64,000 nt of DNA, from positions 303,226-367,225 of the forward strand of contig NZ_GL878519.1 in assembly GCF_000194985.1 (NCBI RefSeq), read 5' to 3'. The first letter of the stretch is position 1. Every line of letters starts with the position of its first letter. The translations under genes and the position numbers were made by a program. The notes under the pieces are model-generated. The model was not told where the DNA came from and ran no database searches. It saw only the letters and a program-made list of their open reading frames with translations. This DNA comes from Dialister micraerophilus DSM 19965. GTDB taxonomy: Bacteria; Bacillota; Negativicutes; Veillonellales; Dialisteraceae. Below, piece by piece: positions 8,936-56,765 of the stretch.

Positions 8936-9877
8936 TTATTTTCCCTTTTCGGATGTATGCTTCTTCTTTTCATTCGTTATACATTCCGCATTTGAGCATA
9001 GTATTTTTTCGGTTCCGTTTTTATAGGTTTTCTTTGTCATTATTGAATGACATTCTTCGCAAAATTTATCTATAGGTTCATTCCACAGTGCCATATCACA
9101 ATTCGGATATTCATTGCATCCGTAAAATATACGTCCACGTTTTGAACGACGTTTTACCATATGTCCTTTTTTACATTTCGGACATATTATTCCTGTATCT
9201 TCTACAATTGCTTTATTTATTCCGCAGTCGACACATTTTAAATATCTTCCGTAAGGTCCTGTTCTGTATACCATATTTTTCCCGCATTTTTCACATGGTA
9301 TATCGGATAATTCATTTTTCTCTTCGGTTACGGAAAACGGTTTTATATTGCTGCATTTCGGATAATTCGGACACGCAAGATATTTTCCGTAGCGTCCCAA
9401 TTTTATAATCATGAACGCACCGCATTTTTCGCATTTAACTTCAGATATTTCTTGCTTTTTATCTTTTTCCGCATCAATTTTTGCAGATTCCAATTCTTTT
9501 TTGAAAACATCATAAAAATCTTGAAGTACTGCTTTATACGTTGCTTTACCTTCAGCAATTTTGTCTAACCAGCTTTCCAAATTTGCTGTAAAATCTATAT
9601 CTACAATTCCTGAAAAATATTTTTTCAAAAGATCGGTTACTACAAATCCGACTTCTGTAGGAATAAATTGCTTACCTTCTTTTGTTACGTATTTTCTTCT
9701 TTGGATTGTATCCAATATTGGTGCATATGTTGAAGGTCTTCCTATACCTTTTTCTTCCAAAGTTTTAATCAAGCTTGCTTCTGTATATCTTGCAGGCGGA
9801 GAAGTGAAGTGCTGTTCTCCTTCTGCACTTATATTCAACATTTCTTCGCCTTTTTGAATATTCGGCAACAATTTCAA
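8936..9877 (-). CDS. topA: DNA topoisomerase I, C-terminal part (downstream of a frameshift)
   Basis: This is the second half of topA, in the -1 frame relative to the first half. It encodes the conserved EQHFTSPPARYTEASL and EEKGIGRPSTYAP segment of the type IA core, then four CxxC-type zinc-ribbon repeats (CEKC...CPNYPKC, CEKC...CVDC, CPKC...CNEYPNC, CEEC...CSNAEC). If translated alone it would start at a TTG overlapping the TGA of the first half, with only a weak ribosome-binding sequence. Inserting one A in the A-rich stretch at 9888-9904 would fuse the parts into a normal TopA. A lone C-terminal piece lacks the Toprim domain and the active-site Tyr. Confidence 0.85.
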   Translation of the reverse strand: MKLLPNIQKGEEMLNISAEGEQHFTSPPARYTEASLIKTLEEKGIGRPSTYAPILDTIQRRKYVTKEGKQFIPTEVGFVVTDLLKKYFSGIVDIDFTANLESWLDKIAEGKATYKAVLQDFYDVFKKELESAKIDAEKDKKQEISEVKCEKCGAFMIIKLGRYGKYLACPNYPKCSNIKPFSVTEEKNELSDIPCEKCGKNMVYRTGPYGRYLKCVDCGINKAIVEDTGIICPKCKKGHMVKRRSKRGRIFYGCNEYPNCDMALWNEPIDKFCEECHSIMTKKTYKNGTEKILCSNAECITNEKKKHTSEKGK

Positions 9878-11253
9878 TTCTTCGGCATTTTTCTTTTTTC
9901 TTTTGCCGATTGCAATATTGTAAATCCGTCAAATAATACGTACATACCGTTTGCTTTTAATGTATAGTTTTCGGTTTTAAGCAGTACAACGGTATTTTGT
10001 TGTATTTGCGGTGTCATCTGACTTGCAATGAATCTGTTCCAAATCAATGTATATAAACGTAATTGATCTCTTGTAAGTACTTTTGTAAGTATTTCAGGTG
10101 CAAATTTCAAATTTGTAGGTCTTATTGCTTCATGTGCATCTTGAGCTTCTTTTGATTTGGAATATACATTATGTTTTTTAGGTAAATATTCTTCTCCGTA
10201 TACATTATTTATATATTCTCTGACCGATGTAATCATTTCATCCGATATACGTGTCGAGTCTGTACGCATATAAGTGATAAGTCCGACATGTCCATGCCCG
10301 GGAATTTCTACACCTTCATAAAGAATTTGTGCGAGCATCATTGTTTTCTTCGAGCCGAATCCGAGTTTGTTTACAGCATCTTGCTGCATGGTTGATGTTG
10401 TATACGGTGCTTTCGGTTTACGCTGTTTTTTCGATTTTGTAACGGATTCTGCAATTGCAGGTTTATTTAAAATTTCATTTACTGCATTTTGTGCTTCTTC
10501 TCCGTTTTTGAAAACTATATCTTTACCGTCTTTACGAATTACTTTTGCAGTAAATTTTTCATTATTTTTTGTTGAATAAACTCCGTTTACATACCAATAT
10601 TCTTCCGCTTTGAACGCTTTTATTTCTTCTTCACGCTCGCAAATCAAACGAGTGGCAACAGATTGTACTCGTCCTGCAGACAGTCCTCTGTAAACTTGTT
10701 TCCATAACCACGGAGAAATTTTATAACCTACCAATCTGTCAAGTACTCGACGTGCCTGCTGTGCATCTACACGATTCATATCCAAAGGTTTCGGATGCTT
10801 AATCGCTTCTTTTATGGCTGTAGGTGTTATTTCATGAAATGCTATTCTGACATTATCTTTAATATTTACATCAAGTAAATTTGATAAGTGCCATGAAATG
10901 GCTTCACCTTCACGATCCGGGTCGGTTGCCAAATAAACATCTTTAGATCTATTTGCTTCTTTACGCAATTCTTTTATTACGTTTTCACGTTCAGTGGAAT
11001 TTACGTATTCAGGTGTAAATCCGTTTTCTATATCTACCCCTAATGTACGTTGCGGCAAATCACGCAAATGTCCCATTGATGCCAACACTTTGTAATCTTT
11101 ACCTAAAATTTTTTCAATTGTTTTTGCTTTCGCCGGTGATTCCACTACAACAAGATGTTTCCCGTTTGCCTTAGGTTTTCTTTTAAATACCGGCTCTTTT
11201 TTCTTTCTTCCCTTACTCTTCGTTCCGATAGTAATAGTTCTGATAATCGGCAA
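9874..11253 (-). CDS. topA: DNA topoisomerase I, N-terminal part (upstream of a frameshift)
   Basis: Type IA topoisomerase that relaxes negative supercoils; normally essential or nearly so. This part holds the Toprim domain (VVVESPAKAKTIEKIL, ATDPDREGEAISWHL) and the catalytic Tyr in LITYMRTDST, about residue 328. It begins at TTG 11253, chosen because GGAGG (11261-11265) lies 7 bases upstream; the N-terminus carries an unusual basic extension of about 30 residues before the Toprim domain. The frame ends at TGA 9874-9876 right after the A-rich codons for KEKRK, and the protein resumes in the -1 frame (8936-9877). No other topA copy is in the window. Confidence 0.88.
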   Translation of the reverse strand: MPIIRTITIGTKSKGRKKKEPVFKRKPKANGKHLVVVESPAKAKTIEKILGKDYKVLASMGHLRDLPQRTLGVDIENGFTPEYVNSTERENVIKELRKEANRSKDVYLATDPDREGEAISWHLSNLLDVNIKDNVRIAFHEITPTAIKEAIKHPKPLDMNRVDAQQARRVLDRLVGYKISPWLWKQVYRGLSAGRVQSVATRLICEREEEIKAFKAEEYWYVNGVYSTKNNEKFTAKVIRKDGKDIVFKNGEEAQNAVNEILNKPAIAESVTKSKKQRKPKAPYTTSTMQQDAVNKLGFGSKKTMMLAQILYEGVEIPGHGHVGLITYMRTDSTRISDEMITSVREYINNVYGEEYLPKKHNVYSKSKEAQDAHEAIRPTNLKFAPEILTKVLTRDQLRLYTLIWNRFIASQMTPQIQQNTVVLLKTENYTLKANGMYVLFDGFTILQSAKEKRKMPKN

Positions 11254-11286
11254 CTTTATTCCTCCGTATCTGTTATGAAAATTCAA

Positions 11287-12378
11287 TTAACCGGAAATGA
11301 CAAATCCTCCTGACGGTGTTTGCATTACAACACCCTTCAGTTGCAATTGCAGCAACAAGCTTTTTAATGTTTTCAATGACATTCCGGTTTTTATCAACAG
11401 TTCATCTTCCGTTATTTCTACACTTTCACTGCAAAAACGATACAACACTTCCTCTTCCAATGTCAACTGCTTATTGAAAGTTTTATCTTTTTTGCATTTT
11501 ATTTCTTTTTTATTTTCCCATCCGTATTCAGATAATATATCTTCGTATGATGTGCAACAGAAAGCTCCGATTTTTAATAACTTATTTGTTCCTTTTGAAC
11601 TTTCCGCCCAAATATTTCCCGGTACTGCAAATATATCTCTTCCTTCTTCAAGTGCAAAATCTGCAGTAATAAGAGATCCGCTTTTTTCAGCCGCCTCAAT
11701 TACAATTACTCCGCGTGTCATTCCGGCAATAATTCTGTTTCTTGCCGGAAATTGTCTGCCTAAAGGCGGTGTACCCGGTGCATATTCGGATATTATACAA
11801 CCTCCATGTGCAATAATTTTTTCAAAAAGATTACGATTTTCTGCAGGATATGTTTTATCAAGTCCGCAAGCCGCTACTGTAACAGTTGCGGATTTTCCTT
11901 CCAATGCACCTTTATGCGCTGCACTGTCAATTCCTCTTGCACCTCCGGAAACGATAACTACGTTTCTTTCCGACAACTCTTTCGCTATTTCTTTTGCAGT
12001 TTTGACTCCGTAAACTGTTGCTTTTCTTATTCCTACTATACTTATAATTCTGTCCGTTACAGGCAATTCACCTCGATAATATAGTACCGGTGGAGGATTT
12101 ATCGTATTTGCCAAAAGCTTCGGATATACTTCATCATTCAGTGTGCAATATTTTATATTGAAATTTTGCATCAATTTATAAATTTTTTCCAAATCGGCTT
12201 CTTTTCGATATTTCAAAAAAGAGTTGAGCTGTTTGCTCGTCAATTTTCCTTTTTCACACAATTCTACAGATGTTGCATTCCATATTTTTTCTCCTGTTTT
12301 AAAAACGGAAAGCAAGTGTCTTATTGTTTTCGATCCCAGCCACGGACATCCCGGTATTGATGCGGTATATATGTCCAT
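11287..12378 (-). CDS. dprA: DNA-processing protein DprA
   Basis: Binds incoming single-stranded DNA and loads RecA during natural transformation; cytosolic. The 363-aa protein has an N-terminal SAM-like helical domain, then the extended Rossmann fold with SIVGIRKATVYG, SGGARGIDSAAH, FPARNRIIAGM and GSLITADFALEEGRDIFAVPG, then a C-terminal winged-helix domain (about residues 300-363). It sits between comM and topA with gaps of a base or two to its neighbours, as in many Bacillota. Its presence with comM suggests retained competence functions, but no com pilus genes are in view. Confidence 0.95.
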   Translation of the reverse strand: MDIYTASIPGCPWLGSKTIRHLLSVFKTGEKIWNATSVELCEKGKLTSKQLNSFLKYRKEADLEKIYKLMQNFNIKYCTLNDEVYPKLLANTINPPPVLYYRGELPVTDRIISIVGIRKATVYGVKTAKEIAKELSERNVVIVSGGARGIDSAAHKGALEGKSATVTVAACGLDKTYPAENRNLFEKIIAHGGCIISEYAPGTPPLGRQFPARNRIIAGMTRGVIVIEAAEKSGSLITADFALEEGRDIFAVPGNIWAESSKGTNKLLKIGAFCCTSYEDILSEYGWENKKEIKCKKDKTFNKQLTLEEEVLYRFCSESVEITEDELLIKTGMSLKTLKSLLLQLQLKGVVMQTPSGGFVISG

Positions 12379-12379
12379 A

Positions 12380-13897
12380 TTATCTACCTGCCATTCTTCT
12401 GTAGCTTATAGCTTCGGCAATATGTGAACTGTCGATATTTTCGGATTCGTCCAAATCCGCTATTGTCCTTGCTACTTTTATAATATGGTCATAACTTCGT
12501 GCAGAAAGTTGCATTTGTTCAAATACATATCTGAGCATTTCGGACCCTTCTTTATCAAGTGTGCAAGTTTCACGCAATTGTTTGTGTCTCATTTGCGAGT
12601 TGCATTGCATTCCCCATTTTTTCAGTCTCTCTTTTTGTATTTCTCTTGCCTTTTGTACACGAATTGCAACTTCTTTTGAACTTTCAGCTTTTATTGCGGA
12701 TGTCAATTCACTGTATTTAGGTCTTTGTACTGAAATGTGTAAATCTATTCTGTCAAGCAACGGTCCTGAAATTTTTCTGTTATATCTTCTTATTTCTCCA
12801 TCTGTGCAAGTACATTCTCTTTTTAAATCTCCGTAGTATCCGCACGGACAAGGATTCATTGCTGCAATCAAAATAAAATCTGTAGGATATACAAATGATG
12901 CATTAACTCTTGATATATGAACTTTTCTGTCTTCCAGCGGTTGTCTAAGTACTTCCAAAACGGATCTCGGAAATTCAGGAAGCTCATCTAAAAACAACAC
13001 TCCATGATGCGCAAGTGTCACTTCACCGGGACGCGGTACGGTTCCTCCGCCTATAAGTCCTGCAGTAGATATGGTATGATGCGGACTTCGAAACGGACGT
13101 TCATGCATAATTTGATTTTCATTAAATAAACCTGCCACACTATATATTTTCGTTACCTCCAATGCTTCTTCTTGCGTCATTAAAGGTAGGATTGTAGTAA
13201 TTCTTCTTGCAAGCATTGTCTTTCCCGATCCAGGAGTTCCCGACATCAATACGTTATGTGCTCCGGCAGCGGCAATTTCCAATGCACGCTTTGCCGTAAT
13301 TTGCCCTTGTACTTCGGAAAAATCCACGTCATATATCAATTTCTTATTTTGTTCCGTTTCATTTCTCAAAGCAGGTTTCAATATTTCATTTCCTAATATA
13401 TGTTCAACTACACATCTCAAAGATTTAACGGAAAAAACTTGTATATCTTCACAAAGTAAAGCTTCTGAAACAACTTTTTCAGGTACGAAAAATTTTTGTA
13501 TTCCATGTTCTTTGGCTGCAAGAACCATTGAAAGTACTCCGGGGACCGCTCTTATTTCACCTTTTAAGGAAAGTTCTCCGATAAATAACGAATCTTTTAA
13601 AATTTCCTGAGGTATTACGCCCGTTGCTGTAAGTAATCCGATTGCGATTGGAAGATCAAGACCGGACCCGTCTTTTTTTAAATCTGCCGGTGCCAAATTT
13701 ACAGTAACTTTATTTATAGGAAAATGGTATCCGGAATTTTTTATTGCTGAATACACACGTTCTTTTGATTCTTTAACCGATGTTGCAGGAAGTCCTACAA
13801 TATCAAAAGAAGGTGCTGCGCGATTTATATCGGTTTCAACAATAATAACGTGACCGTTCAATCCATAAGTTGTTGTGCCATATACTTGCGCAAACAT
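12380..13897 (-). CDS. comM: YifB/ComM family Mg-chelatase-like AAA ATPase
   Basis: AAA+ helicase-like protein; ComM promotes branch migration during integration of transforming DNA in characterised species. The 505-aa protein has the N-terminal ChlI-like domain (INRAAPSFDIVGLP, LNGHVIIVETD), Walker A GTPGSGKTML near residue 220, the RPFRSPHHT motif, Walker B GVLFLDELPEF, AAMNPCPCGYYG and the C-terminal Mg-chelatase domain. It lies between yraN and dprA, one base from dprA. The function in this organism is inferred from the family and the dprA linkage. Confidence 0.93.
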   Translation of the reverse strand: MFAQVYGTTTYGLNGHVIIVETDINRAAPSFDIVGLPATSVKESKERVYSAIKNSGYHFPINKVTVNLAPADLKKDGSGLDLPIAIGLLTATGVIPQEILKDSLFIGELSLKGEIRAVPGVLSMVLAAKEHGIQKFFVPEKVVSEALLCEDIQVFSVKSLRCVVEHILGNEILKPALRNETEQNKKLIYDVDFSEVQGQITAKRALEIAAAGAHNVLMSGTPGSGKTMLARRITTILPLMTQEEALEVTKIYSVAGLFNENQIMHERPFRSPHHTISTAGLIGGGTVPRPGEVTLAHHGVLFLDELPEFPRSVLEVLRQPLEDRKVHISRVNASFVYPTDFILIAAMNPCPCGYYGDLKRECTCTDGEIRRYNRKISGPLLDRIDLHISVQRPKYSELTSAIKAESSKEVAIRVQKAREIQKERLKKWGMQCNSQMRHKQLRETCTLDKEGSEMLRYVFEQMQLSARSYDHIIKVARTIADLDESENIDSSHIAEAISYRRMAGR

Positions 13898-13905
13898 AAA
13901 TCCTC

Positions 13906-14259
13906 CTAAAATGCATTAACTACATGTCTATAAACAGGTTCTTTACCCGGATAAATCATAATTTCAACTACATCAAATCTTACTTGCCTGTCTTCTTCTT
14001 GTTTCATATATAAGTACATATTCGCACAATAGCGTATATGTTCCCTTTTATAAGGAGTAACCGATTCTATAGGTTCACCGAAACGTTTATTTGTTCGTGC
14101 TTTTACTTCTACAAAAACCCACGTTTCTCCGTCTTGCATTATTAAATCAATTTCTCCATGTCGCCTTCTGAAATTTTTCGCTAAAAGTTTGAATCCTTTT
14201 TTCTCAAGATATTTTTCTGCAAGTTCTTCTCCATAACGTCCAAATTCGGATTTTTTCAT
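13906..14259 (-). CDS. yraN: UPF0102/YraN family endonuclease-like protein
   Basis: A 117-aa protein of the YraN family, which has the restriction-endonuclease-like fold; its role is uncharacterised. The fold's acidic/lysine signature is visible in GEIDLIMQDGETWVFVEVKAR. The open frame continues to a TTG at 14283, but GGAG about 7 bases before the ATG at 14259 supports the shorter form starting MKKSEFGRYGEELA, as in homologues. It lies next to rnhB and comM, the usual context of this family. Confidence 0.9.
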   Translation of the reverse strand: MKKSEFGRYGEELAEKYLEKKGFKLLAKNFRRRHGEIDLIMQDGETWVFVEVKARTNKRFGEPIESVTPYKREHIRYCANMYLYMKQEEDRQVRFDVVEIMIYPGKEPVYRHVVNAF

Positions 14260-14344
14260 ATACTTCTCCACAAACCAATTCAATCACTTTTAAATCAATA
14301 TTAATATATTGTAAATAAACAAGTCAAACGCATAAAAAATTTCA

Positions 14345-14384
14345 AAACAAAAGGATGCTTCTTGTAAGACACAAAAAAGCATCC
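14345..14384 (-). terminator. Terminator after rnhB
   Basis: GGATGCTT and AAGCATCC arms around a 16-base loop, then TTTTGTTTTG on the minus strand. It lies between rnhB and yraN, so yraN may be driven from a separate start or by read-through. Confidence 0.6.
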
Positions 14385-14526
14385 ACATGTTCAATTCGAT
14401 TGATAATAAATATGTCCATAATTTCCGATACATGTCGTAGTGTAAATTTTTTTATTATACTTATTCGTTTTTTATTTTATTTTTTGTACTCTTTTACAAT
14501 ATGCTTCTACGTATTAATAAAATATT

Positions 14527-16178: not shown

Positions 16179-16240
16179 TTTTTTCTCCTGTTTTTACTTT
16201 TACTTTTATTTTTTATATTATCATAAATTCATATATTAAA

Positions 16241-29885: not shown

Positions 29886-30530
29886 TTATACATAATCTGT
29901 AAAATTTTTAATTATAACTATCGGTGTTTTTTGATTGTCATTTCCAAAAGGATTGTCTATTAATATTTTTGCCACTTTGTATGGACTGATTTTTGCACTT
30001 TTCCCGAGTACGGCAGCTCTTTTCAAATCATTTACATCTGCTATTACAGCTCCGTATGCTCCTGTCGCTTTTTTTATTTCTTCACATACCTTACTTGCAT
30101 TTGCAGGTCCATATACAAGACATTTATCAAACGGCGGCATTGTTCCAGTTACATCGTCTATTAATGACGCTTGTCTGCATCTTTGATAGAAAACTCCATG
30201 TTTGCCCGCCAATTTTGCAATTGCACCCCAGATAAATGAAAACATCATATTCCATTTACCTTCTTCTTCCATTGCGGCTTGCATTCCGTAAATACTTGCC
30301 ATAGATCCTGCAGGCGGTACAAATCTGTTCATAAGTCTTGCTTGCCAGCATACTTTCAGTTCTTCAGGCCTTATATATCTGCTTTGTGTTATCGCAAGTA
30401 CGGATTCGGCAACACACACTATATCTTTATTCGTAATGATATCTTGTGCATATTCTTTGATTGCTTCTACTATATTGTCTTTATTTGTAAGTATTCTTGT
30501 ATGTACTGGTATAAGTTCCGGTGATTCCAT
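29886..30530 (-). CDS. Coenzyme F420-0:L-glutamate ligase (CofE)-like protein
   Basis: A 214-aa protein resembling the CofE/FbiB gamma-glutamyl ligase domain (PF01996-type). Visible features are VPVHTRILTNKDNIVEAI, the conserved AESVLAITQSRYI, FVPPAGSM and a C-terminal GAVIADVNDLKRAAVLG segment that resembles the metal/GTP-binding end of the family. No other F420 gene is in the window and these bacteria are not known F420 makers, so the substrate is probably something else. It starts directly after the stop of a small membrane protein gene, and the two probably form a functional pair. Confidence is good for the fold and low for the reaction. Confidence 0.75.
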   Translation of the reverse strand: MESPELIPVHTRILTNKDNIVEAIKEYAQDIITNKDIVCVAESVLAITQSRYIRPEELKVCWQARLMNRFVPPAGSMASIYGMQAAMEEEGKWNMMFSFIWGAIAKLAGKHGVFYQRCRQASLIDDVTGTMPPFDKCLVYGPANASKVCEEIKKATGAYGAVIADVNDLKRAAVLGKSAKISPYKVAKILIDNPFGNDNQKTPIVIIKNFTDYV

Positions 30531-41975: not shown

Positions 41976-42234
41976 TACTTACTTGTTCCTTAAGTTTTTC
42001 ATATACTTCCGGAGATACCGGTCTTTTCAAAGAACGTTCCAAACCATGCGATTCGAACGCTTTTTCAAAACACTGTATATTTCCGCAAATATATACACCT
42101 CTACCTGACATTTTCCCTGTTTTATCCAAATCAATCAAACCTGTAGGAAGTGCTACTATACGTAACAATTCTTTTTTCATCTTAAGATTACCACAACCTA
42201 CACACATACGCATAGGGATTTTTTTTGTTTTCAT
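41968..42234 (-). CDS. ylxR: YlxR/RnpM family RNA-binding protein (DUF448)
   Basis: An 88-aa nucleic-acid-binding protein. Family features are PMRMCVGCGNLKMKKELLRIV, GRGVYIC and CFEKAF. RnpM of Bacillus is reported to bind the RNase P RNA; the same role here is inference. Its ATG overlaps the nusA stop by one base, and it overlaps ylxQ by 8 bases. Confidence 0.92.
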   Translation of the reverse strand: MKTKKIPMRMCVGCGNLKMKKELLRIVALPTGLIDLDKTGKMSGRGVYICGNIQCFEKAFESHGLERSLKRPVSPEVYEKLKEQVSNE

Positions 42235-43355
42235 TATTCTCCCTCCGGTTTTTCGTATGCTTCTTCAAAATCTTCCAACACACTTCCTTCTTCTTGTCCG
42301 AATCCGTCTTCTGCAGCTTGTGATTCACTCTTTATATCAATCTTCCAGTTTGTCAATTTAGCTGCCAATCTTGCATTTTGTCCCGCTTTACCTATTGCCA
42401 AAGACAATTGATAGTCCGGAACCACTACGTAGGACGAATTTTCTTCTTCCCATATAGATACCGAAATTACTTTTGAAGGAGACAGTGCATTTGCGATATA
42501 AACCGCCGGATCTTCATCCCAACGAACTATATCTATTTTTTCATCGTGCAATTCATTTACTATATTTCTTACACGTTGTCCTTCCGGACCTACACATGCA
42601 CCTATCGGGTCCAAAGTCGGATCCATTGTGTATACTGCGATTTTTGAGCGTGAACCCGCTTCACGTACTACCGCTTTTATTTCAATTACGCCGCTGTAAA
42701 TTTCAGGTACTTCGACTTCAAATAAACGTTTCAACAATTCCGGCGATTTTCTTGAAAGGAAAATTTCCGGACCTTTTGTAGTTTTTCTTACTTCTGAAAT
42801 ATAGCACTTAATTTTATCGTTCGGTGCAAAATGTTCGCCTTCGATTTGTTCGGAAAAAGGAAGAATACCTTCAACACGTCCCAAATCTACATATACCGTT
42901 CTGTCGTCACTCCATTTTACAGTTCCTGTTATAATATCTCCTTCACGTCCGGAGAATTCATCGTAAATGGAACCACGTTCGGCTTCACGCAATTTCTGTA
43001 TCATTACTTGCTTTGCAGTTTGTACAGCTACTCTTCCGAAGTTTTCCGGAGTAACTTCAATACGGAAAAGATCTCCGGCTTCCAAATTTTCATCATATTT
43101 CTTTGCTTCCGCAACGGTGACTTCATTTATAGCGTTCTCCGATAACGGATCGATTTCTTCAACAACCGTTTTTTCGGCATAAATATGATATTCACCGGTT
43201 TCACGATTGAAAGTTACCGAGCTTTTTGCGTTGCTTCCGGTTTCTTTTTTATAAGCTGTGAGCAATACCATTTCAAGTGCATTGAAAACAATTTCTTCAT
43301 CGACCTTTTTTACTTTAACTAAAGCCTTTACGGCATCCAACAAATTTGTATTCAC
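42234..43355 (-). CDS. nusA: Transcription termination/antitermination protein NusA
   Basis: Binds RNA polymerase and nascent RNA to modulate pausing, termination and antitermination. The 373-aa protein has the N-terminal RNAP-binding domain, S1 domain (GDIITGTVKWSDDRTVYVDLGRVEGILP near residue 135), KH1 (DPIGACVGPEGQRVRNIVNEL near 245) and KH2 (LAIGKAGQNARLAAKL near 325). It lacks the C-terminal acidic repeats of E. coli NusA, as is normal for Bacillota. The start is GTG with GGAGG upstream. A hairpin in the operon leader may allow NusA autoregulation. Confidence 0.96.
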   Translation of the reverse strand: MNTNLLDAVKALVKVKKVDEEIVFNALEMVLLTAYKKETGSNAKSSVTFNRETGEYHIYAEKTVVEEIDPLSENAINEVTVAEAKKYDENLEAGDLFRIEVTPENFGRVAVQTAKQVMIQKLREAERGSIYDEFSGREGDIITGTVKWSDDRTVYVDLGRVEGILPFSEQIEGEHFAPNDKIKCYISEVRKTTKGPEIFLSRKSPELLKRLFEVEVPEIYSGVIEIKAVVREAGSRSKIAVYTMDPTLDPIGACVGPEGQRVRNIVNELHDEKIDIVRWDEDPAVYIANALSPSKVISVSIWEEENSSYVVVPDYQLSLAIGKAGQNARLAAKLTNWKIDIKSESQAAEDGFGQEEGSVLEDFEEAYEKPEGE

Positions 43356-43372
43356 GATTCTTTACGCCTCCA

Positions 43373-43843
43373 TCAAAATTCAAAATATAATCTCATCTGA
43401 GAAATCTTTTTCTTTGATAAAAAAATTTCTCTTCCGTCATCTAATATCAAAGATATTTCATCATTTACCAAGCCGTTCAAAATTGCTGCAAATTCTTTGT
43501 CCAAATTTAATTCTTCAACAGGCGCAAACAATTTTACACTGACTTTGCTGTCTTTATAACGAATAAAATCTTTGTCTTTTTTCAAAACACGATCAATTCC
43601 GGGTGAGGAAACTTCCAACATGTAATTGTCCGAAATTAAATCGTTTTTATCAATTAATTCTCCTGCCGAAACGCTTATTTCTTGACAATCGTTCAAATCT
43701 ACTCCGCCGTCTTTGTCGATAAAAATGCGTAAAATCCAATTTCTTTCACGAACATATTCCACATCGACAACTTCAATGCCCTTTTTTTCCAATACCGGTT
43801 GTATAAGTGCTTCTACTGCAGATTCGATTTCCTTATGTGACAT
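43373..43843 (-). CDS. rimP: Ribosome maturation factor RimP
   Basis: Needed for 30S subunit maturation. The 156-aa protein has the two-domain RimP layout with EVVDVEYVRERNWILRIFIDKDGGVDLNDC and YMLEVSSPGIDRVL, and a C-terminal Sm-like domain. It is the first gene of the nusA-infB operon. A promoter lies at 43941-43970, and a terminator-like hairpin sits between that promoter and its start codon. Confidence 0.95.
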   Translation of the reverse strand: MSHKEIESAVEALIQPVLEKKGIEVVDVEYVRERNWILRIFIDKDGGVDLNDCQEISVSAGELIDKNDLISDNYMLEVSSPGIDRVLKKDKDFIRYKDSKVSVKLFAPVEELNLDKEFAAILNGLVNDEISLILDDGREIFLSKKKISQMRLYFEF

Positions 43844-43885
43844 AATTTACACCTCTTAAACTTCTCAGGTACATTCCCTCAATAC

Positions 43886-43911
43886 AAGAAAAAGTGAGCC
43901 GCAGCTCACTT
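43886..43911 (-). terminator. Terminator-like hairpin in the rimP-nusA leader
   Basis: AAGTGAGC and GCTCACTT with a 4-base loop, then TTTTTCTTG on the minus strand. It lies about 45 bases before rimP and downstream of the promoter at 43941-43970. It may end the upstream ligase transcript, attenuate the rimP operon, or both. Confidence 0.75.
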
Positions 43912-43940
43912 CCACCAGGAAATATATATTAACATCGTTA

Positions 43941-43970
43941 TTATAGCAGAAAAATTTAACTAAGTCCAAT
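43941..43970 (-). promoter_or_regulatory. Promoter of the rimP-nusA-infB operon
   Basis: Minus strand TTGGAC, 18-base spacer, TGCTATAAT (extended -10 element). Confidence 0.55.
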
Positions 43971-43974
43971 TTTT

Positions 43975-45329
43975 TTATTTATTAACGTCATTTGAATTTT
44001 CCAATAACTTGTATAATGCTTTTTTATTGATTTTTCCGGTTGAATTCAATGGAATTTCAGATAAAAAAATATAACGTGAAGGTCTTTCCCATGAATGAAA
44101 TTCGGCATTTACAACTTTTTTCATCAACGTATTATTGAATGTGTCCGACTTGACAATAAATGCTGCTATTTTATTTTTTCCGTTTTCGGTTTGAAACGGA
44201 ATTATACATACATTTTCCACGCCTTTTATATTTTTAAAAATTTGTTTTATGCGTTGTGCATGTACGGCATTTCCTTTAACCGAGAATACATCTTTCTTTC
44301 TTCCGCAAAAAAACAATTCTCCTTTTTCATTCATAAATCCTCTATCTCCGCAGCTGTACGGTTTTGTAAGTCCCAATGCCGTAAACGGACTTTCTATAAA
44401 AATTTCTCCGTTACAAACTGATACATTTACTTCCGGAAAAGGTTTACCTATGCAATTGAACGATTTTTTCACTTCCGGATTTCGCAAATAACTTACATAG
44501 CTCAATTCTGCCGAGCCGTAGTACAAAATAATTTCCGCATTCGGAAATTGTGTTTTAAGGCATTGCATTTCTTTTTCGGATATCAATTCCGATCCTGACA
44601 ATATGGACTTCACACAGGTGCAGACAATTTTGTTTTTTGTCAATATTGCCAATTTTGAAGGAATCATATAGATATGGTCACAGGAAAATTCCGAGATTTC
44701 TTTTTTCCACACGGATGGAGACATTTTTGATGTCCCTTTGACAAATGCCCCTTTGTATAAAAAAGCCAATATCATATTCAAATTACCGGAAAATGCCGAC
44801 GATCCGTGAAAATAAAGTGATGAGTCGGAATTGATTTTGAAAATGCGATTTTGTATGTCGAAAAAATCTGTCCAACTTGAGCATGTTCTATATATAAGTT
44901 TCGGATTGCCTTCACTTCCTGAGCTCAATACTGCAAATTTTCTTTCTGGAATATTTTCACATATTTTTTGTGTTTCAGATATTTCTTGTTTTGCAAAATG
45001 TGTTTTTATAATTTTACCGTTTGAAAACAAATAAGGAATTTTATATGTATTCAATAAATTATTTATTTCATTTTTGTTTAAGTAGTCATGAAGCAAAAGA
45101 GGAATTCCTTTTGCATTTTCCACCGCCAAAAATACAACGAGTTGCTCAATAACGGATGTTGTATAAATCGCAACTGTTTTGTCTTTTATATTACAATTGA
45201 ATATTTTTTCCGTTTTTTTATTTCATTTGCCAATTCCTCATATGTATAAAAATTTTCATCAATTGAAATTCCTTTTTTATTACTTTTTGTCTTTGCGTAT
45301 AAAAATATCTGCTCTGAAAATGTATTCAT
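43975..45329 (-). pseudogene. Acyl-CoA synthetase-like AMP-binding protein (YhfT-like), interrupted by a -1 frameshift
   Basis: ANL-superfamily enzyme that would activate a carboxylic acid. Core motifs are LSSGSEGNPK (A3 region), YYGSAELSYVS (A5), SCGDRGFM (A7), GRKKDVFSVKGN (A8) and a final Lys in STGKINKKALYKLL (A10), so all usual catalytic parts are present. The main frame is open only from a TTG at 45129. The first 47 codons run from ATG 45329, which overlaps the thiolase TGA by 4 bases, to a TAA at 45186-45188 in another frame. One extra A in the A7 run at 45213-45219 would join them. The frame is therefore either broken, mis-sequenced or recoded. It is the third gene after bioY and the thiolase. 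Confidence 0.8.
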
Positions 45330-46480
45330 TTTTTACCTTTATGATTAACGACAAGAATTGCTTGTCCTATTCCTCCTGCTGCAGGAATGGCGGCAATACC
45401 GTATTGTCCGTTTTCTTTTTTCAGTATTTCCTGCAAATGAAGCATTAAAATCGCTCCCGATGCTCCATATGGATGTCCGTATACCAATGCTCCACCCCAT
45501 TTATTGAATCGTTTTTTCTCTTCGTTGTGTTCTTTTTGGAAATGAACTCGAATTATGGAGAAAGATTCATTGTATTCGAAGGCAAATATATCTTTGTATT
45601 TTAAATTACATTCATTCAATATATTTAAAGTCGCAAAGTCTGCCGCCAATGGAGGATATTCCGGATTTGTACCTTTCATCATCGTGCTTAGCAGTTCTAT
45701 TTCACATTCTCTTTTATTTTGTTTCATCCAATTTTCCGATGCCAATATCACAAATGCGGCTCCGTCATTAATTGTACAACTGTTTGCCGAAGTCAATACA
45801 CTTCCGTTTTGATTGAATATCAATGGCGCTCTTTCAAGTAATTTTTCAGTGAATTTACGTCTCATAACTTCATCTCTTGTGCTGGAGAAGAGTGGACAAA
45901 TTATATTTCCAAGCAAATTTTTATCTCTTGCCTTGTATGCATTTTGATAACATTCCAATGCGGCCATGTCTGCTTCTTTTTTACTTATGTTCAACAATTT
46001 TGCTGTTTTTTCGGCACCTGAAAGCATTGCATCATCTTCATATTCCGACGGTGAGAATTGTGCTGCTGTAAATTTCGAATTTCTTAGTTTTGTACGCGGA
46101 TCGTTTTCATTATATTCTCGATACGGTTGAAGAGAGGTGCTTTCTATACCTCCTGCAAATACCAGTTCACATTGCCCCGATGCAATTTTACTGTACGCTA
46201 TATCAATCGCAGTCAGTCCGGATGCGCATTGCGTATCTACCGTAAAAGCAGGTACATTGTCTGATATACCTGCATTAAGCAATGTCAATCTTCCTATATT
46301 TCCGCCGGGTCCTATTGCATTTCCGCAAATCAACAAGTCCGGATTTTCTACAAAATATTTTCTTTTTATTTCTTTTATCAATGCGGCTCCCAATTTTTCA
46401 GGAAGAACGTTTTTAAATATACCGTTTCTTATTCCTATGTGAGTTCTCAATCCGCCTAATAAAAAAACTCGGTTTATCAT
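45326..46480 (-). CDS. Thiolase-family protein (YhfS-like) lacking the second catalytic cysteine
   Basis: A 384-aa protein of the thiolase fold. The nucleophile Cys85 is present in VDTQCASGLTA, the NEAFA-type site appears as YNESFS, and the histidine motif as GGALVYGHPYGASGA. The second catalytic Cys of thiolases, in the C-terminal LCIGGG block, is replaced by Pro in AAIPAAGGIGQA, so normal thiolase base chemistry is doubtful. It lies between bioY and the AMP-binding ligase-like gene, like the yhfS gene of Bacillus. Its reaction is unknown; a decarboxylating or other Claisen-type condensation is one possibility. Confidence 0.85.
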   Translation of the reverse strand: MINRVFLLGGLRTHIGIRNGIFKNVLPEKLGAALIKEIKRKYFVENPDLLICGNAIGPGGNIGRLTLLNAGISDNVPAFTVDTQCASGLTAIDIAYSKIASGQCELVFAGGIESTSLQPYREYNENDPRTKLRNSKFTAAQFSPSEYEDDAMLSGAEKTAKLLNISKKEADMAALECYQNAYKARDKNLLGNIICPLFSSTRDEVMRRKFTEKLLERAPLIFNQNGSVLTSANSCTINDGAAFVILASENWMKQNKRECEIELLSTMMKGTNPEYPPLAADFATLNILNECNLKYKDIFAFEYNESFSIIRVHFQKEHNEEKKRFNKWGGALVYGHPYGASGAILMLHLQEILKKENGQYGIAAIPAAGGIGQAILVVNHKGKK

Positions 46481-49482: not shown

Positions 49483-49500
49483 CCCTATGATTTAAGACAA

Positions 49501-49734
49501 TTACTGAATTTGTTTTTCAATGTAGTCTACTGCATCACGAACTGTCTTAATTTTTTCAGCTGCGTCATCCGGAATTTCAATATCGAATTCTTCTTCAAAT
49601 GCCATAATCAATTCAACGATATCGAGAGAATCTGCTCCCAAATCATCAATGAAAGTAGCATCTATCTGCACGTCTGCTTCGTTTACACCGAGCTGTTCAA
49701 CTACGATTTTCTTCACTCTGTCAAATGCGCTCAT
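49501..49734 (-). CDS. acpP: Acyl carrier protein
   Basis: Carries growing acyl chains on a phosphopantetheine arm attached to Ser36 in [11 protein letters not shown]. The product is 77 aa and strongly acidic, both typical. The frame is open upstream to 49746, but the ATG at 49734 with AGGTGG before it gives the standard length and the usual [11 protein letters not shown] start. It sits between fabG and fabF. A GC-rich hairpin follows the gene. Confidence 0.96.
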
Positions 49735-49773
49735 CACTTTCACCACCTTTCATTGCATCATTTTTAAATTATA

Positions 49774-51467: not shown

Positions 51468-51486
51468 ACTTCTGCGCTCCTATGTA

Positions 51487-52479
51487 TCAGTTCCATTTAA
51501 ATATCGCACATCCCCAGGTCAATCCTGCACCGAATCCTGTAAGTACCACAATGTCACCTTTTTTTACTTTTCCGGCTTTTACCGCTTCATCCAAAGCTAT
51601 ACCTATGGAGGCTGCAGATGTGTTTCCGTATTTATCGACATTTACCAATACTTTTTCACTTTCAAGCCCAATTTTTTTTGCTACTGCTTGTATGATTCTG
51701 TTATTGGCTTGATGTGCTATAAACATATTTATATCTTCTTTTTTCAGCCCGGCTTTTTCTACAGCCTTCAAGGTTGTAAATTCCATATGCCTTACTGCGG
51801 CTTTAAACACTTCGGATCCGGACATATGAAGAAACATATCTCCGGAATCGATTGTTTCATGGCTTGCAGGTTTTGCGGTTCCTCCTGCCGGTATACACAA
51901 TATATTTCCCAAACTTCCGTCAGAACCCAATTCTGCCGAAAGAAGTCCGTAACCTTCACTAACTTCTCCTACAATTGCCGCACCGGCTCCGTCTCCGAAT
52001 AAAATACAGGTTGTACGATCATGCCAATTTACTATTCGTGAAAGAGTCTCGGCTCCTACTACCAAAATTTTTTTGTACATTCCTGTGCTTACCATATTTG
52101 ATGCTACCGTACATGCATAAACATATCCCGTGCATCCTACGGATATATCCATTGCACCTGCATTTTTGCATCCCAATTTATCTTGAACCAGACATGCCGT
52201 TGAAGGTGTAATGTAATCAGGTGTAATTGTCGCTACAATTATAAAATCTATATCGGAAGCAGTAATTTTTGCAGCTTCCATCGCTTTTTTTGCAGCTTTT
52301 ACACATAAATCGGATGTGTTTTCATTTTCTGAAGAAATATGTCTGCATTTTATTCCTGTACGTGTTCTTATCCATTCATCCGAAGTTTCTACCATTTTTT
52401 CCAAATCAAAATTGGTAATTATTTTTTCAGGTACATAATGACCTGTTCCAAGTATTCCGGACGGTGTCATCTCTTTCAT
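51487..52479 (-). CDS. fabH: 3-oxoacyl-[acyl-carrier-protein] synthase III
   Basis: Starts fatty acid synthesis by condensing acyl-CoA with malonyl-ACP, and so sets branched- or straight-chain starters. The 330-aa protein has Cys116 in SVGCTGYVYA, His in FIAHQANNRII near residue 249 and Asn in KYGNTSAAS near 279 (Cys-His-Asn class). GGAG seven bases before the ATG at 52479 was preferred over the ATGs at 52500 and 52497, which overlap plsX. It is one base after plsX. Confidence 0.95.
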   Translation of the reverse strand: MKEMTPSGILGTGHYVPEKIITNFDLEKMVETSDEWIRTRTGIKCRHISSENENTSDLCVKAAKKAMEAAKITASDIDFIIVATITPDYITPSTACLVQDKLGCKNAGAMDISVGCTGYVYACTVASNMVSTGMYKKILVVGAETLSRIVNWHDRTTCILFGDGAGAAIVGEVSEGYGLLSAELGSDGSLGNILCIPAGGTAKPASHETIDSGDMFLHMSGSEVFKAAVRHMEFTTLKAVEKAGLKKEDINMFIAHQANNRIIQAVAKKIGLESEKVLVNVDKYGNTSAASIGIALDEAVKAGKVKKGDIVVLTGFGAGLTWGCAIFKWN

Positions 52480-52480
52480 A

Positions 52481-53512
52481 TCAACACTCCGTTTCATCAT
52501 TTTTTTCTATTTTTTTCAGTGCTTCTGCAATTATTTCATGTAAATCTGTTTTGGCTACGTCTTTTGCCAATTTAATCGCATTGCGAATTGCCCATGATTT
52601 CGAAGAACCGTGACAAATAATCAAACCTCCGCGTATGCCTAAAAGTAAAGCGCCTCCATATTCGGAGTAATCCATCCTTTTAACCAAATGCTCTTTCAAT
52701 GCCGGTTTTAAAAGCCATCCTCCGATTTTTGCACGCAATCCGCCTTTTTTTACCGATTCTTTTATCAATGCCGAAAAAAGATGTCCTGCACCTTCTCCGA
52801 ATTTCAATACCACGTTGCCTGTAAATCCGTCCGTAACAACAACATCATATTCTCCGGTCATTACATATCTTCCTTCAACATTTCCCATAAAAGGAATCGT
52901 TTTTTGTTCGGAAAGCAACTTGTTTGCTGCAGTAACTTCAGGACTTCCTTTTACACTTTCTTCACCGATGTTAAGCAATCCTATTTTAGGATTTTCTATA
53001 TTCGCAACATATTTTGCATACACATAACCTAAAAGTGCATTTTGCAAATATGTTTCTTTTTTAGGTTGTGCACTTGCACCGGAGTCAATCAAAAAAGTCT
53101 GTTCTCCCTTTTCATTGGGAAGAGGTGTCAAAATTGCAGGTCTTTCTATTCCCGGAATACGTCCTATTCCCAAGAGTCCCGCAGTGACCGCAGCTCCTGT
53201 AGATCCGGGTGCTACCAAAACTTTACATTCTCCGGATCTTACCAATTTTGCACCGACGGAAATCGATGCATCTTTTTTCTTTCGAAATGCCAACCCCGGA
53301 TGTTCATCCATACCTATTACTTGTGATGCATGATGAATTTCAATCAATTCATTATTTTCTTCATTTTCATTTTTTAAAATTTTTTCGATTTGATCTTTAT
53401 CGCCGACCAAAACTACATGAACTCCGAAATCACGTACTGCACGTATTGCTCCGAGTACAATTTCCAAAGGTGCATAATCTCCACCCATAGCATCTACTGC
53501 AATTTTAATCAT
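52481..53512 (-). CDS. plsX: Phosphate acyltransferase PlsX
   Basis: Makes acyl-phosphate from acyl-ACP, linking fatty acid to phospholipid synthesis; peripheral membrane. The 343-aa protein starts with the family signature MIKIAVDAMGGDYAPLEIV and has PGSTGAAVTAGL near residue 108, GLLNIGEESVKG near 180 and DGFTGNVVLKFGEG near 236. It overlaps fapR by 4 bases and precedes fabH by one base, the standard fapR-plsX-fab order. Confidence 0.96.
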   Translation of the reverse strand: MIKIAVDAMGGDYAPLEIVLGAIRAVRDFGVHVVLVGDKDQIEKILKNENEENNELIEIHHASQVIGMDEHPGLAFRKKKDASISVGAKLVRSGECKVLVAPGSTGAAVTAGLLGIGRIPGIERPAILTPLPNEKGEQTFLIDSGASAQPKKETYLQNALLGYVYAKYVANIENPKIGLLNIGEESVKGSPEVTAANKLLSEQKTIPFMGNVEGRYVMTGEYDVVVTDGFTGNVVLKFGEGAGHLFSALIKESVKKGGLRAKIGGWLLKPALKEHLVKRMDYSEYGGALLLGIRGGLIICHGSSKSWAIRNAIKLAKDVAKTDLHEIIAEALKKIEKNDETEC

Positions 53513-54081
53513 ATTTTTCTCTTATCCTTATCAATTAATGTTTCCATAATAAATTTTGCACGGAAAACTTCTTGTGCATCATTGGAAAAACTTATATACA
53601 CATATTTTTTATTACCGCGCATCAATACTACTCTTCCCTTTACTATCAATTGTTTATCGGGTACAACAGGAATTTTATATTTTACATTTCCTACCTGCGT
53701 GGGTAAAAAAGAAATTCCTACAATGTATTGAGCCATTTGCGCTGCAGCTCCATAAAAGTATTCCGCAGAAACCATTCCTTCACTGCCTGCCATAGATTCA
53801 TCGGTATTAAACAGTGCTATACCTTTTTTCCCGATATCCAAATCTATAACTTTCAGTCCGTTTTTTCTTTGCGGAAAACCTTCGGAAACAACCTGTTCAA
53901 CTCGCTCTCTCATTTGAGGAATTCCTAAAATTTGTCGATCCAAGCGAACAGTTGCAACAGATACCGAGAATTGCTCAGCAAGGTCGGCATCCGTGAGACA
54001 AGGATTTTGTCGAAGTATTTCTGCAACGGCTTCTCGCCGTTCTTTTTTGCTAAAATGCTCTTTGCCGCTCACTTTTATCAC
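53509..54081 (-). CDS. fapR: Transcription factor FapR
   Basis: Malonyl-CoA-responsive repressor of fatty acid and phospholipid genes. The 190-aa protein has an N-terminal DeoR-like helix-turn-helix (about residues 10-55, with DLAEQFSVSVATVRLDRQILGIP) and a C-terminal hotdog ligand-binding domain (KGIALFNTDESMAGSEGMVSAEYFYGAAAQMA). It is first in the operon fapR-plsX-fabH-fabD-fabG-acpP-fabF-rnc, and a possible operator half lies before its start (54095-54111). Malonyl-CoA would release it; that is family knowledge. Confidence 0.95.
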   Translation of the reverse strand: MIKVSGKEHFSKKERREAVAEILRQNPCLTDADLAEQFSVSVATVRLDRQILGIPQMRERVEQVVSEGFPQRKNGLKVIDLDIGKKGIALFNTDESMAGSEGMVSAEYFYGAAAQMAQYIVGISFLPTQVGNVKYKIPVVPDKQLIVKGRVVLMRGNKKYVYISFSNDAQEVFRAKFIMETLIDKDKRKI

Positions 54082-54094
54082 CTACCGATAATAC

Positions 54095-54111
54095 TATATC
54101 ATACGTGCTAA
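54095..54111. promoter_or_regulatory. Candidate FapR site before fapR
   Basis: Minus strand TTAGCACGTATGATATA, whose first ten bases differ from my recollection of the FapR half-site TTAGTACCTA at two positions; the second half fits poorly. Low-confidence candidate. Confidence 0.2.
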
Positions 54112-54224
54112 AAATATTCACCATTAAGCAAAATTTTAACAAATAAATATTACATTATTAATTGAGAATAATTAACTGTTTCAATTATCATTTTTGTATT
54201 TTTTATTTGTTTTTTATTTTTAAT

Positions 54225-54253
54225 TTGACTTTTATTCCCTTAAATACTAGACT
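54225..54253 (+). promoter_or_regulatory. Promoter of the FabK-like gene with overlapping inverted repeat
   Basis: TTGACT, 17-base spacer, TAGACT. An imperfect inverted repeat TTAAATA-N6-TATTCAA (about 54240-54259) covers the -10 element and could be a regulator site. Confidence 0.4.
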
Positions 54254-54335
54254 ATTCAAAAATATATTTTTACTTTTTATATAAAACATATTTTTATATT
54301 TGTTTGAATATTATTTTTTTAACAAGGAGTTTTAT

Positions 54336-55391
54336 ATGTTGTTTTCTTCTCTTCGTATAGGAGATTTGATTGCAAAAGTACCTATAATACAAGGCGGTAT
54401 GGGTATAGGTGTAAGTCTTTCAAAATTGGCCGGAGCCGTAGCAAAAGCCGGAGGAATAGGAGTGGTTTCAGCAGCACAACCGGGCTTTAAAGATCCTGAT
54501 TTTAAAAGACATACTTATGATGCTAATATAAGAACTTTAAGTTATCATATCGAAAAAGCAAAAGAAATTTCCGATAACGGAATAATCGGCGTTAATATAA
54601 TGTGTGGAGGACAGCATTATGAAGATTATGTAAAATGTGCTGTACAAAGCGGTGCCGATATTATTTTCTCCGGAGCAGGTCTTCCGAAAAATTTACCTGA
54701 ATTTGTTAAAGGAACAAACACAAAAATCGCACCTATTATCGGTTCTTCCAAAGCTGCTACCGTATTGCTGAAGCTTTGGGAACGTCATCATAAGAGAACT
54801 GCCGATTTGGTGGTTATAGAAGGTCCTAAAGCCGGAGGACATTTAGGATACAGTCGTGAAGATATTGCTATATATGAACACAAAAGTTATTATGAAGAAA
54901 TCATAAAAATCTTGGAAATAGTAAAAACTTTTGAAAATAAATTCAATAAAAAAATACCTGTTGTTTTCGGCGGAGGTATTTTCGATAAAAGTGATATAAA
55001 TCATTGCATATCTTTAGGACTTTCCGGTGTACAGATGGCAACACGTTTTGTCGCTACCGAAGAATGTGATGCCTCGAGAGAATTTAAAGAGGCTTATATA
55101 AAAGCAAAAAAAGAAGACATAGGCTTGGTTCACAGTCCGGTCCACATGCCGGGACGTGCAATAATAAATCCCTATGTAAAAAAAATATTGAGAGGTAAAA
55201 AAATTGTTCGCAGTTGTTTCAGATGTTTGACAGGTTGTTCTCCGCAAACTACTCCATACTGTATTACAATGGCGCTTGTACGTGCAGTAACGGGTGATGT
55301 GGATAACGGACTTATTTTCTGCGGTGCGAATGCTTGGAAAATTAAAGAAATTACAACCGTTCCGAAATTGATTTCCGAATTAACTGAATAA
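54336..55391 (+). CDS. NAD(P)H-dependent flavin oxidoreductase (FabK / nitronate monooxygenase family)
   Basis: A 351-aa FMN-binding TIM-barrel protein. Visible features are IIQGGMGIGVSLSKLAGAVAKAGGIGVVS at the N-terminus (split here as QGGMGIG and AGGIGVVS), GAGLPK near residue 130, GPKAGGHLGYS near 170, and VVFGGGIFDK near 218 with GVQMATRF near 238. A cysteine-rich C-terminus (SCFRCLTGC near 300) is typical of a Bacillota branch annotated as nitronate monooxygenase. It is divergent from the FapR-fab operon, which contains no enoyl-ACP reductase, so it may supply that FabK step. AAGGAG before the ATG at 54336 sets the start. Confidence 0.82.
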   Translation: MLFSSLRIGDLIAKVPIIQGGMGIGVSLSKLAGAVAKAGGIGVVSAAQPGFKDPDFKRHTYDANIRTLSYHIEKAKEISDNGIIGVNIMCGGQHYEDYVKCAVQSGADIIFSGAGLPKNLPEFVKGTNTKIAPIIGSSKAATVLLKLWERHHKRTADLVVIEGPKAGGHLGYSREDIAIYEHKSYYEEIIKILEIVKTFENKFNKKIPVVFGGGIFDKSDINHCISLGLSGVQMATRFVATEECDASREFKEAYIKAKKEDIGLVHSPVHMPGRAIINPYVKKILRGKKIVRSCFRCLTGCSPQTTPYCITMALVRAVTGDVDNGLIFCGANAWKIKEITTVPKLISELTE

Positions 55392-55397
55392 TTCCAC

Positions 55398-55437
55398 AAA
55401 AAATCAGAATGTACTTTTTATACATTCTGATTTTTTA
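55398..55437 (+). terminator. Bidirectional terminator between the FabK-like gene and pyrE
   Basis: AAAAATCAGAATGTA and TACATTCTGATTTTT form a 15-bp stem with a 6-base loop; T runs on both strands serve the convergent genes. Confidence 0.85.
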
Positions 55438-55447
55438 TTTCAAATAT

Positions 55448-56035
55448 TTATTTTTTCAAATGATGACTTCCTCTTTCGGTCAAAGGAATTTTTTTCAAAC
55501 ATTTAGGACATTCTTCAGCTTTGAATGTAGGTACTTCCAAATGCAGCAGAGCATGCACTTTTTCTTGAGGTACTCCAAGTTCGGCTTTTCCTCCGGAACG
55601 GTCTACAAAAAGTCCTACACCTACAATATCGCCCTTTTCCTGATTTACGGCATCTACAACTTCTTTTATGGATCCTCCGGTTGTAACGATGTCTTCAACT
55701 ATCAACACTTTTTCGCCGGGCTTTATTTTAAATCCTCTTCTGAATTTCATTTTTCCGTTTTCACGCTCGGTGAATATTGCACGAACTCCCAATAAATCAG
55801 CAGTAACGTGAGATAAAATTATTCCTCCTGTTGCCGGTCCTATTACGGTTTCTATTCCTTTATCTTTAAAATATTTTGCAAATTCATTACATAATTCACG
55901 TGTATACTTCGGATGCTGCAATACATTGAATTTTTCTACATAAAGCGAACTGTGCAGTCCGGATGTTAAAAGAAAATGCCCTTCAAGAATTGCTTTTGTT
56001 TCTCTCAATAACGCTTCTACTTCCTTCTCGTTCAT
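55448..56035 (-). CDS. pyrE: Orotate phosphoribosyltransferase
   Basis: Converts orotate and PRPP to orotidine monophosphate in pyrimidine synthesis. The 195-aa protein has SGLHSSLYVEKF near residue 25, IGPATGGI near 65 and the PRPP loop VLIVEDIVTTGGS near 109. The C-terminus has CPKC, a short metal-binding-like tail (about residues 177-180). Its ATG overlaps the pyrF stop by one base. The operon is pyrF-pyrE. Confidence 0.95.
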   Translation of the reverse strand: MNEKEVEALLRETKAILEGHFLLTSGLHSSLYVEKFNVLQHPKYTRELCNEFAKYFKDKGIETVIGPATGGIILSHVTADLLGVRAIFTERENGKMKFRRGFKIKPGEKVLIVEDIVTTGGSIKEVVDAVNQEKGDIVGVGLFVDRSGGKAELGVPQEKVHALLHLEVPTFKAEECPKCLKKIPLTERGSHHLKK

Positions 56036-56577
56036 TATATTGCCTCCCTTATTTCTTCATTTATCAATTCTGCCGCATGTCTCGGATTTTCCGCTTGAGT
56101 AATCGGTCTTCCTATCACTAAAAGAGTTGCACCGTTATTTATTGCTTCTTTCGGTGTGGTAATACGTTTTTGATCGTTTGCATTTGCAAACTTCGGACGT
56201 ATTCCGGGTGTAACTATAAGAAATTCATCACCGGAAATTTCTCGTATCATTCGAGCTTCTTTAGGAGATGCTATTACACCGTCAAGTCCGGATTTTTTTG
56301 CGATTTTCGCAAAATTTATAACGCTGTCTTTTATAGATAATTTGCTGCCAATTTCTTTCCATGCTTCTTCATCAATTGCAGTTAAAACCGTTACACCTAA
56401 AATTTTCGGAACTTCTATTCCTTCTTCTTCAGCTGCAATTTTTGCATAATGAACTGCACTTTCAAGCATCCTACTTCCACCTGCCGCATGCACAGTTAAT
56501 AAATCTACTCCCAATTTTGTAAGATAATATACACTATGTCCTACCGTATTCGGTATGTCATGCAATTTCAAATCCAA
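56035..56577 (-). CDS. pyrF: Orotidine 5'-phosphate decarboxylase, C-terminal part (after a frameshift)
   Basis: This part begins with the active-site stretch DLKLHDIPNTV (the catalytic Lys and Asp), then LLTVHAAGG, VTVLTAI, ASPKEARMIRE, IVTPGIRPK and the substrate-binding GRPITQAENPRHAAE. It lacks the N-terminal barrel strand and DMNS loop, which lie in another frame at 56568-56765. The two frames overlap by 10 bases. If translated alone it would start at a TTG. One extra A near 56584-56594 would join the parts into a normal PyrF. Confidence 0.85.
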   Translation of the reverse strand: MDLKLHDIPNTVGHSVYYLTKLGVDLLTVHAAGGSRMLESAVHYAKIAAEEEGIEVPKILGVTVLTAIDEEAWKEIGSKLSIKDSVINFAKIAKKSGLDGVIASPKEARMIREISGDEFLIVTPGIRPKFANANDQKRITTPKEAINNGATLLVIGRPITQAENPRHAAELINEEIREAI

Positions 56578-56765
56578 AAAAACTTTTTTGTTTTACTTTT
56601 TAAAAATTCAACAGCTTTTTGTCCGACACTGTAGTACAATTCCATTCCTACTTTATAAAAAGAAACGGCATCTCCCAATTCATCTACCATTTCTTTCATT
56701 TTATCAAAGGAATTCATATCCAATGCCACAATTATTCTGTTGTTTACTTCACAGATTTTTTCCAC
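56568..56765 (-). CDS. pyrF: Orotidine 5'-phosphate decarboxylase, N-terminal part (before a frameshift)
   Basis: Final enzyme of UMP synthesis. This first part encodes RIIVALDMNSFDKM and FYKVGMELYYSVG, the usual PyrF N-terminus, then KSKTKKF before a TGA at 56568-56570. The homologous continuation (VFLDLKLHDI) is in the -1 frame. In phase at 56583-56589 lies A AAA AAG, the heptamer used for -1 frameshifting in dnaX of E. coli; slippage there would give KTKKVFLDLKLHD. The start is GTG 56765, with GGAG eight bases upstream. Either broken, mis-sequenced or recoded. Confidence 0.82.
   Translation of the reverse strand: MEKICEVNNRIIVALDMNSFDKMKEMVDELGDAVSFYKVGMELYYSVGQKAVEFLKSKTKKFFWI

Follow-up and report, generated by a model that had tools for sequence, protein, structure and literature searches.

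Frameshifts at short A/T runs in topA, pyrF and a ligase gene of Dialister micraerophilus DSM 19965 are probably homopolymer miscounts in the draft genome

False frameshifts at homopolymers are well illustrated by Halomonas elongata, whose genome was first sequenced by 454: resequencing brought 72 corrections in unique regions (1 error per 56 kb), including 48 insertions or deletions (indels), 37 of them in homopolymers, and 23 frameshift corrections in genes such as pyrC, murD and zwf (PMC5552945; this and the papers below are cited for the sections used here). Singleton frameshifts validated by BLAST are expected to be sequencing errors, not genuine indels (PMC3711429). In transcripts, insertions climb exponentially with run length (PMC5574713). 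Here we analyse three genes that are written as frameshifted in one stretch of Dialister micraerophilus DSM 19965: topA, pyrF and a gene for an AMP-binding acyl-coenzyme A (acyl-CoA) ligase. The stretch, hereafter the window, spans 64,000 nucleotides (positions 303,226 to 367,225 of the main contig). A census of similar lesions in nearly half of the genome suggests that the three breaks are very probably miscounted homopolymers in the draft sequence, and we infer an error in the number of bases written, not a mutation of the genes. Our literature search found no paper joining a Dialister genome, a frameshift and a homopolymer.

The topA gene lies on the reverse strand in two open reading frames (ORFs) that match complementary parts of the family profile TIGR01051 (topA_bact). 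The upstream piece (9,874–11,286) carries Toprim and most of Topoisom_bac (PF01751; PF01131, positions 2–292; TIGR01051, 1–435 of 632), and the downstream piece, in another frame (8,936–9,877), carries the end of Topoisom_bac and the zinc ribbons (PF01131, 297–411; PF01396; TIGR01051, 445–629). The frame change, a net −1, was placed at 9,889–9,901, the median position over 38 alignments to ORFs of relatives, among which some genomes enter more than once. The coding strand there reads A4-G-A6-G-A5, and the longest uninterrupted run is A6, with a G between the A runs. Identity to the relatives' proteins is 72% and 70% on the two sides of the break, and topA is in one frame in all 39 relatives. 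The closest named relative is Dialister sp. UBA7295 (topA 74%), among the matches listed (80 loci), from which the genome's own records may have been excluded.

In pyrF, also on the reverse strand, the upstream piece of 65 codons (56,568–56,765) was read from the sequence, with a relative's PyrF aligned at 56,762–56,577, and the downstream piece lies in another frame at 56,035–56,577 (PF00215, 56–220; NF001273, 60–231 of 233). Across 11 alignments to ORFs of relatives, the median position of the net −1 change is 56,577–56,601, where the sequence is A6-G-T7 with an in-frame A_AAA_AAG inside. The short run at this break may be either an A run or a T run, the two being indistinguishable from the bases as written. 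The gene is in one frame in the 10 relatives with a match; the eleventh, a 75% complete genome, gave none.

The break in the ligase gene, on the same strand, was delimited by the open frames and not by alignment. The downstream piece (43,975–45,129; PF00501) belongs to a frame that is open up to about 45,222, which would give 415 amino acids as compared with 384. The N-terminal piece has 47 codons (45,186–45,329), starting at an ATG at 45,329, at the end of the thiolase gene, and stopping at 45,186. The net −1 change falls between this upstream-frame stop and the start of the open downstream frame (45,186–45,222), an interval with A7 and A6 runs on the coding strand. The 47-codon piece has no match of its own, and in the ligase ORFs of five relatives 26–75 residues lie ahead of the region that aligns with the downstream frame. 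Clear homologues occur in these 5 of the 11 family relatives, with 37–41% identity and open frames of 460–538 amino acids. We take this gene to be the one that the initial annotation of the window called ligase-like. Another candidate for that name, an F420-ligase-like gene at 29,886–30,530, was set aside: its frame is unbroken in this genome and in 10 of the 11 family relatives, the eleventh being without a match. The ligase and thiolase genes stand, within 42,234–46,480, directly upstream of genes that we read by eye as rimP and nusA, and in each of the five relatives' loci an ORF with a match to the thiolase end likewise adjoins the ligase.

The initial annotation had presented the three as core genes, each broken by the loss of one A in an A-rich stretch, among about 60 intact genes. 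Each is indeed changed by a net −1 where the sequence is rich in A, except that A6-G-T7 in pyrF is not uniquely A. The ligase, with clear homologues in 5 of the 11 family relatives, is not a core gene. As for the genes described as intact, 45 of the 64 window ORFs kept were verified to match a relative's ORF in a single frame over 80% or more of its length.

We then place the three lesions against the rest of the genome, which comprises 1,280,035 bases in 6 contigs (1,272,504 bases and five contigs of 691–3,209). The census sample, which includes the window, amounts to 611,306 bases, or 48% of the genome, of which 599,718 readable bases were screened; its A+T content is 64.58% (N excluded). 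Published values are 64.69% A+T and 1,256,198 bp in 32 contigs for DSM 19965, and 64.35% and 1,395,825 bp for D. micraerophilus strain UPII 345-E (PMC3618517). The references were all ORFs of at least 100 amino acids from stretches of four relatives and from smaller loci of other relatives; their proteins covered 357 kb, about 60% of the readable sample. A candidate frameshift was a pair of tblastn matches on the same strand, collinear and in different frames. The strict filter kept sense-strand pairs in which each flank had at least 60 bits and at least 35% identity. Such a census may overlook fast-evolving genes, and it overlooked the ligase lesion, which thus stands outside the strict set.

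The census produced 17 groups, of which six passed as strict frameshifts, about one per 60 kb covered: topA, pyrF, trxB, rnr, asd and thiL. The four outside the window are given by sampled stretch of the genome (L-numbers). The trxB-like gene, named after NCBIfam, is broken at L115:14160-14181 at an A7 run (net −1; two reference alignments), and rnr at L146:18265-18277, also at an A7 run (net −1; one reference alignment), with halves matching positions 2–108 and 147–326 of the Pfam family RNB. In asd (aspartate-semialdehyde dehydrogenase) the break lies at L116:5592-5602 (L116 being contig positions 180,001–200,000), at a T8 run of the coding strand, and in thiL (thiamine-phosphate kinase) at L118:16865-16899 (L118 being 283,001–303,000), beside an A7 run; both are net +1 and have one reference, and both pieces match TIGR01296 and TIGR01379, respectively. 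In topA, trxB, asd, thiL and rnr, a single family accounts for the two pieces, each matching a different, complementary part of it. Decay beside the breaks was not seen in the strict six: the census found one lesion per gene, between flanks conserved at 53–72% identity. The uniform −1 direction that the initial annotation had stressed is not kept outside the window, where asd and thiL are +1; by our arithmetic, three of three lesions share a sign by chance in 1 case out of 4.

Each of the six strict breaks touches an A/T run of 6 bases or longer, whereas intervals of equal width placed at random in the covered sequence would be expected to do so 0.61 times; for runs of at least 7, the figures are 5 observed and 0.20 expected. 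The tie of the breaks to runs of at least 6 exceeds chance. The longest run at each break, as now written, has 6 bases in topA, 7 in trxB, thiL, rnr and pyrF (a T run in the latter), and 8 in asd (a T run). The covered sequence contains 922 six-base, 351 seven-base, 57 eight-base and 2 nine-base A/T runs. No G/C run occurs at the six breaks, and the covered sequence has just 35 G/C runs of at least 5. The initial annotation had proposed that frameshifts elsewhere in the genome unlinked to A runs would refute its claim: when A runs alone are counted, there is one in the strict six (asd, at its T8), and when A and T runs are counted there is none.

The same screen was applied to three relatives (G006, G004 and G002) and found no convincing coding frameshift in the 332, 240 and 187 kb covered. 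G006, which bears another genus label, has a similar size (1,274,073 bases) and base composition (64.7% A+T), and none of its 11 groups was kept. G004 gave 6 groups, with one kept match that lies in the 23S ribosomal RNA (rRNA) gene. G002 gave 10 groups, with one kept match; its reference ORF comes from G002 as well (L006) and has a second match in L237. We read this stretch as a repeat and not as a gene, although this is unproven. If covered length is the only weighting, all six frameshifts would fall in D. micraerophilus with a chance of 0.001. The contrast with the relatives is nevertheless suggestive and modest rather than strong, because they have fewer long runs: the covered sequence holds 1,332 A/T runs of at least 6 here, versus 792, 141 and 173 in the three relatives.

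Eleven groups were dropped by the filter, and three of these are possibly real, each with one weak flank. At L135:13018-13066, a gene that looks helicase-like by eye has a net −1 change at A5 runs. At L137:18752 (L137 being contig positions 668,001–688,000), a gene read by eye as DNA-methylase-like has a net +1 change at an A6 run, and this site is a candidate for real phase variation if the gene is a restriction-modification methylase. At L140:2154, a gene read by eye as surface-protein-like has a −1 change; its downstream match has 24% identity, and the site might reflect a mosaic gene instead of a frameshift. By run, these three weaker cases thus comprise one A6, one with A5 runs and one with no run. 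Other census matches were judged spurious: L131 and L132:1145; L132:12380, where by our reading two adjacent genes are fused in the reference; L120, a contig that carries 23S and 5S rRNA; L146:10323; and the antisense or weak matches in the window at 8,900, 13,886, 25,784, 49,755 and 50,517.

We favour sequencing artefacts because the breaks are bound to homopolymers, occur in both signs and at both A and T, and lie in housekeeping genes with conserved protein sequence before and after the break. Runs of A or T, 6–8 bases long, would have been counted one short or, elsewhere in the genome, one long, which is the pattern that pyrosequencing (454) would typically give; the cell itself would carry intact topA, pyrF and ligase genes. 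What is expected of miscounts is seen in the census: run-bound breaks above chance, net −1 and net +1 changes, and A runs together with one T8. The census therefore supports the initial annotation where it named homopolymer basecalling error as the simplest reading, with both signs present and A/T runs of at least 6 at six of six breaks. Genomes such as this one were presumably 454-sequenced in the Human Microbiome Project.

Several observations weigh against an artefact. The involvement of a homopolymer-prone platform in this assembly is something that we infer. Four of the six strict events rest on just one or two reference ORFs each, and the weaker case at L140:2154 has no long run near it. 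Net −1 changes outnumber +1 changes by 4:2 in the strict set, 5:2 with the ligase and 7:3 with the three weaker cases, an imbalance that fits equal odds. Once positions are weighted by A/T runs (of at least 6 or at least 7), the chance that all six events fall here is 0.03–0.04 relative to the three relatives, and 0.06 relative to G006 alone. Finally, replication slippage also favours runs.

This last point leads to the alternative that survives best, although we consider it unlikely: true and recent one-base indels, produced by replication slippage in A/T runs of this strain or culture, with the genes truly inactivated, or off in only some cells of the population. Such events are expected to cluster at runs, and the excess over the relatives is modest once runs are counted. 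The rate of breaks also seems to climb with run length, from 1 of 922 six-base runs to about 4 of 351 seven-base and 1 of 57 eight-base runs (lengths as written, by our assignment). However, these indels would have struck six housekeeping genes together, topA and asd among them, all with conserved protein on both sides of the break, and there is no convincing case in G006 at an equal base composition.

Rescue by slippage, whether of the polymerase or of the ribosome, was the other option of the initial annotation, by analogy with endosymbionts, and it fares poorly: taken as a whole, we hold it to be very improbable. Its more serious form, which is by itself slightly less probable still, is RNA polymerase slippage at the runs, giving a mixed pool of messenger RNA from which sufficient full-length protein would be made, a mechanism put forward for Buchnera and Blochmannia. 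It has in its favour a small AT-rich genome, lesions at A/T runs and a reported mechanism (PMC3017870); furthermore, more than half of the single-base deletions in Buchnera transcripts are in homopolymers (PMC5574713), so that +1 lesions would be partly within reach. Yet transcript deletions at homopolymers are rare overall, and no frame-restoring transcription error was detected, according to the sections of that study used here (PMC5574713). The runs are also short, just 6–8 bases with that of topA split by a G, when the long tracts of PMC3017870, in the part cited, have at least 9; on this yardstick, which is our own after that paper, no such tract is present at the six strict breaks, where the longest has 8. 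An extra base in the transcript would not restore asd or thiL, both of them +1, asd lies at a T8 run, and hundreds of equal runs occur in the covered sequence (351 of seven, 57 of eight and 2 of nine bases). In addition, the topA and pyrF frame changes are not common to the relatives (39 and 10 with a match), as judged from the relatives rather than from other strains of the species.

The motif A_AAA_AAR is one of −1 ribosomal frameshifting, as in dnaX, and dnaX and prfB are places of known recoding. Ribosomal shifting at such heptamers, which would rescue the −1 lesions, is barely credible here: by our reading, an in-frame A_AAA_AAG or A_AAA_AAA does occur at the breaks of pyrF, the ligase, trxB and rnr, but the topA break has no in-frame heptamer, asd and thiL are +1 and thus of the wrong sign, and we give the motif little weight because it has 245 in-frame occurrences in the covered coding sequence. 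The open frame of dnaX itself is 593 amino acids long. A composite scheme, in which real lesions are tolerated by ribosome or RNA polymerase shifting at runs of 6–8 A, such as a −1 shift at the heptamers of pyrF, trxB, rnr and the ligase, with separate events for topA, asd and thiL, strikes us as highly improbable. Were the lesions real, they would amount to run-dependent recoding in essential genes of a bacterium outside the known endosymbionts, and little here favours it. If they are miscounts, as we think, the consequence is one of caution: in drafts of this kind housekeeping genes such as topA, pyrF, asd, thiL, trxB and rnr seem to be broken, and metabolic reconstruction and pseudogene counts would be misled.

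The comparison with described systems points the same way. The lesions resemble those of Blochmannia and Buchnera: in both cases single-base shifts of frame lie at A/T runs, and the genes concerned are housekeeping genes of a genome that is small and AT-rich. They differ in that some of the endosymbiont frameshifts are common to species and their tracts reach 11–12 bases in the sections cited (PMC3017870), whereas the runs here have 6–8 and the topA and pyrF changes are unshared. The match with the errors of H. elongata DSM 2581 is imperfect too, and this also counts against an artefact: in the part of the report cited, its T runs were one too long (19) and its C runs mostly short (15), whereas here A and T runs are affected and are more often short. 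The two genomes nonetheless have in common one-base errors, presumed in ours, that lie mostly in homopolymers, that run both long and short, that simulate frameshifts in housekeeping genes and that occur at a similar order of density (PMC5552945).

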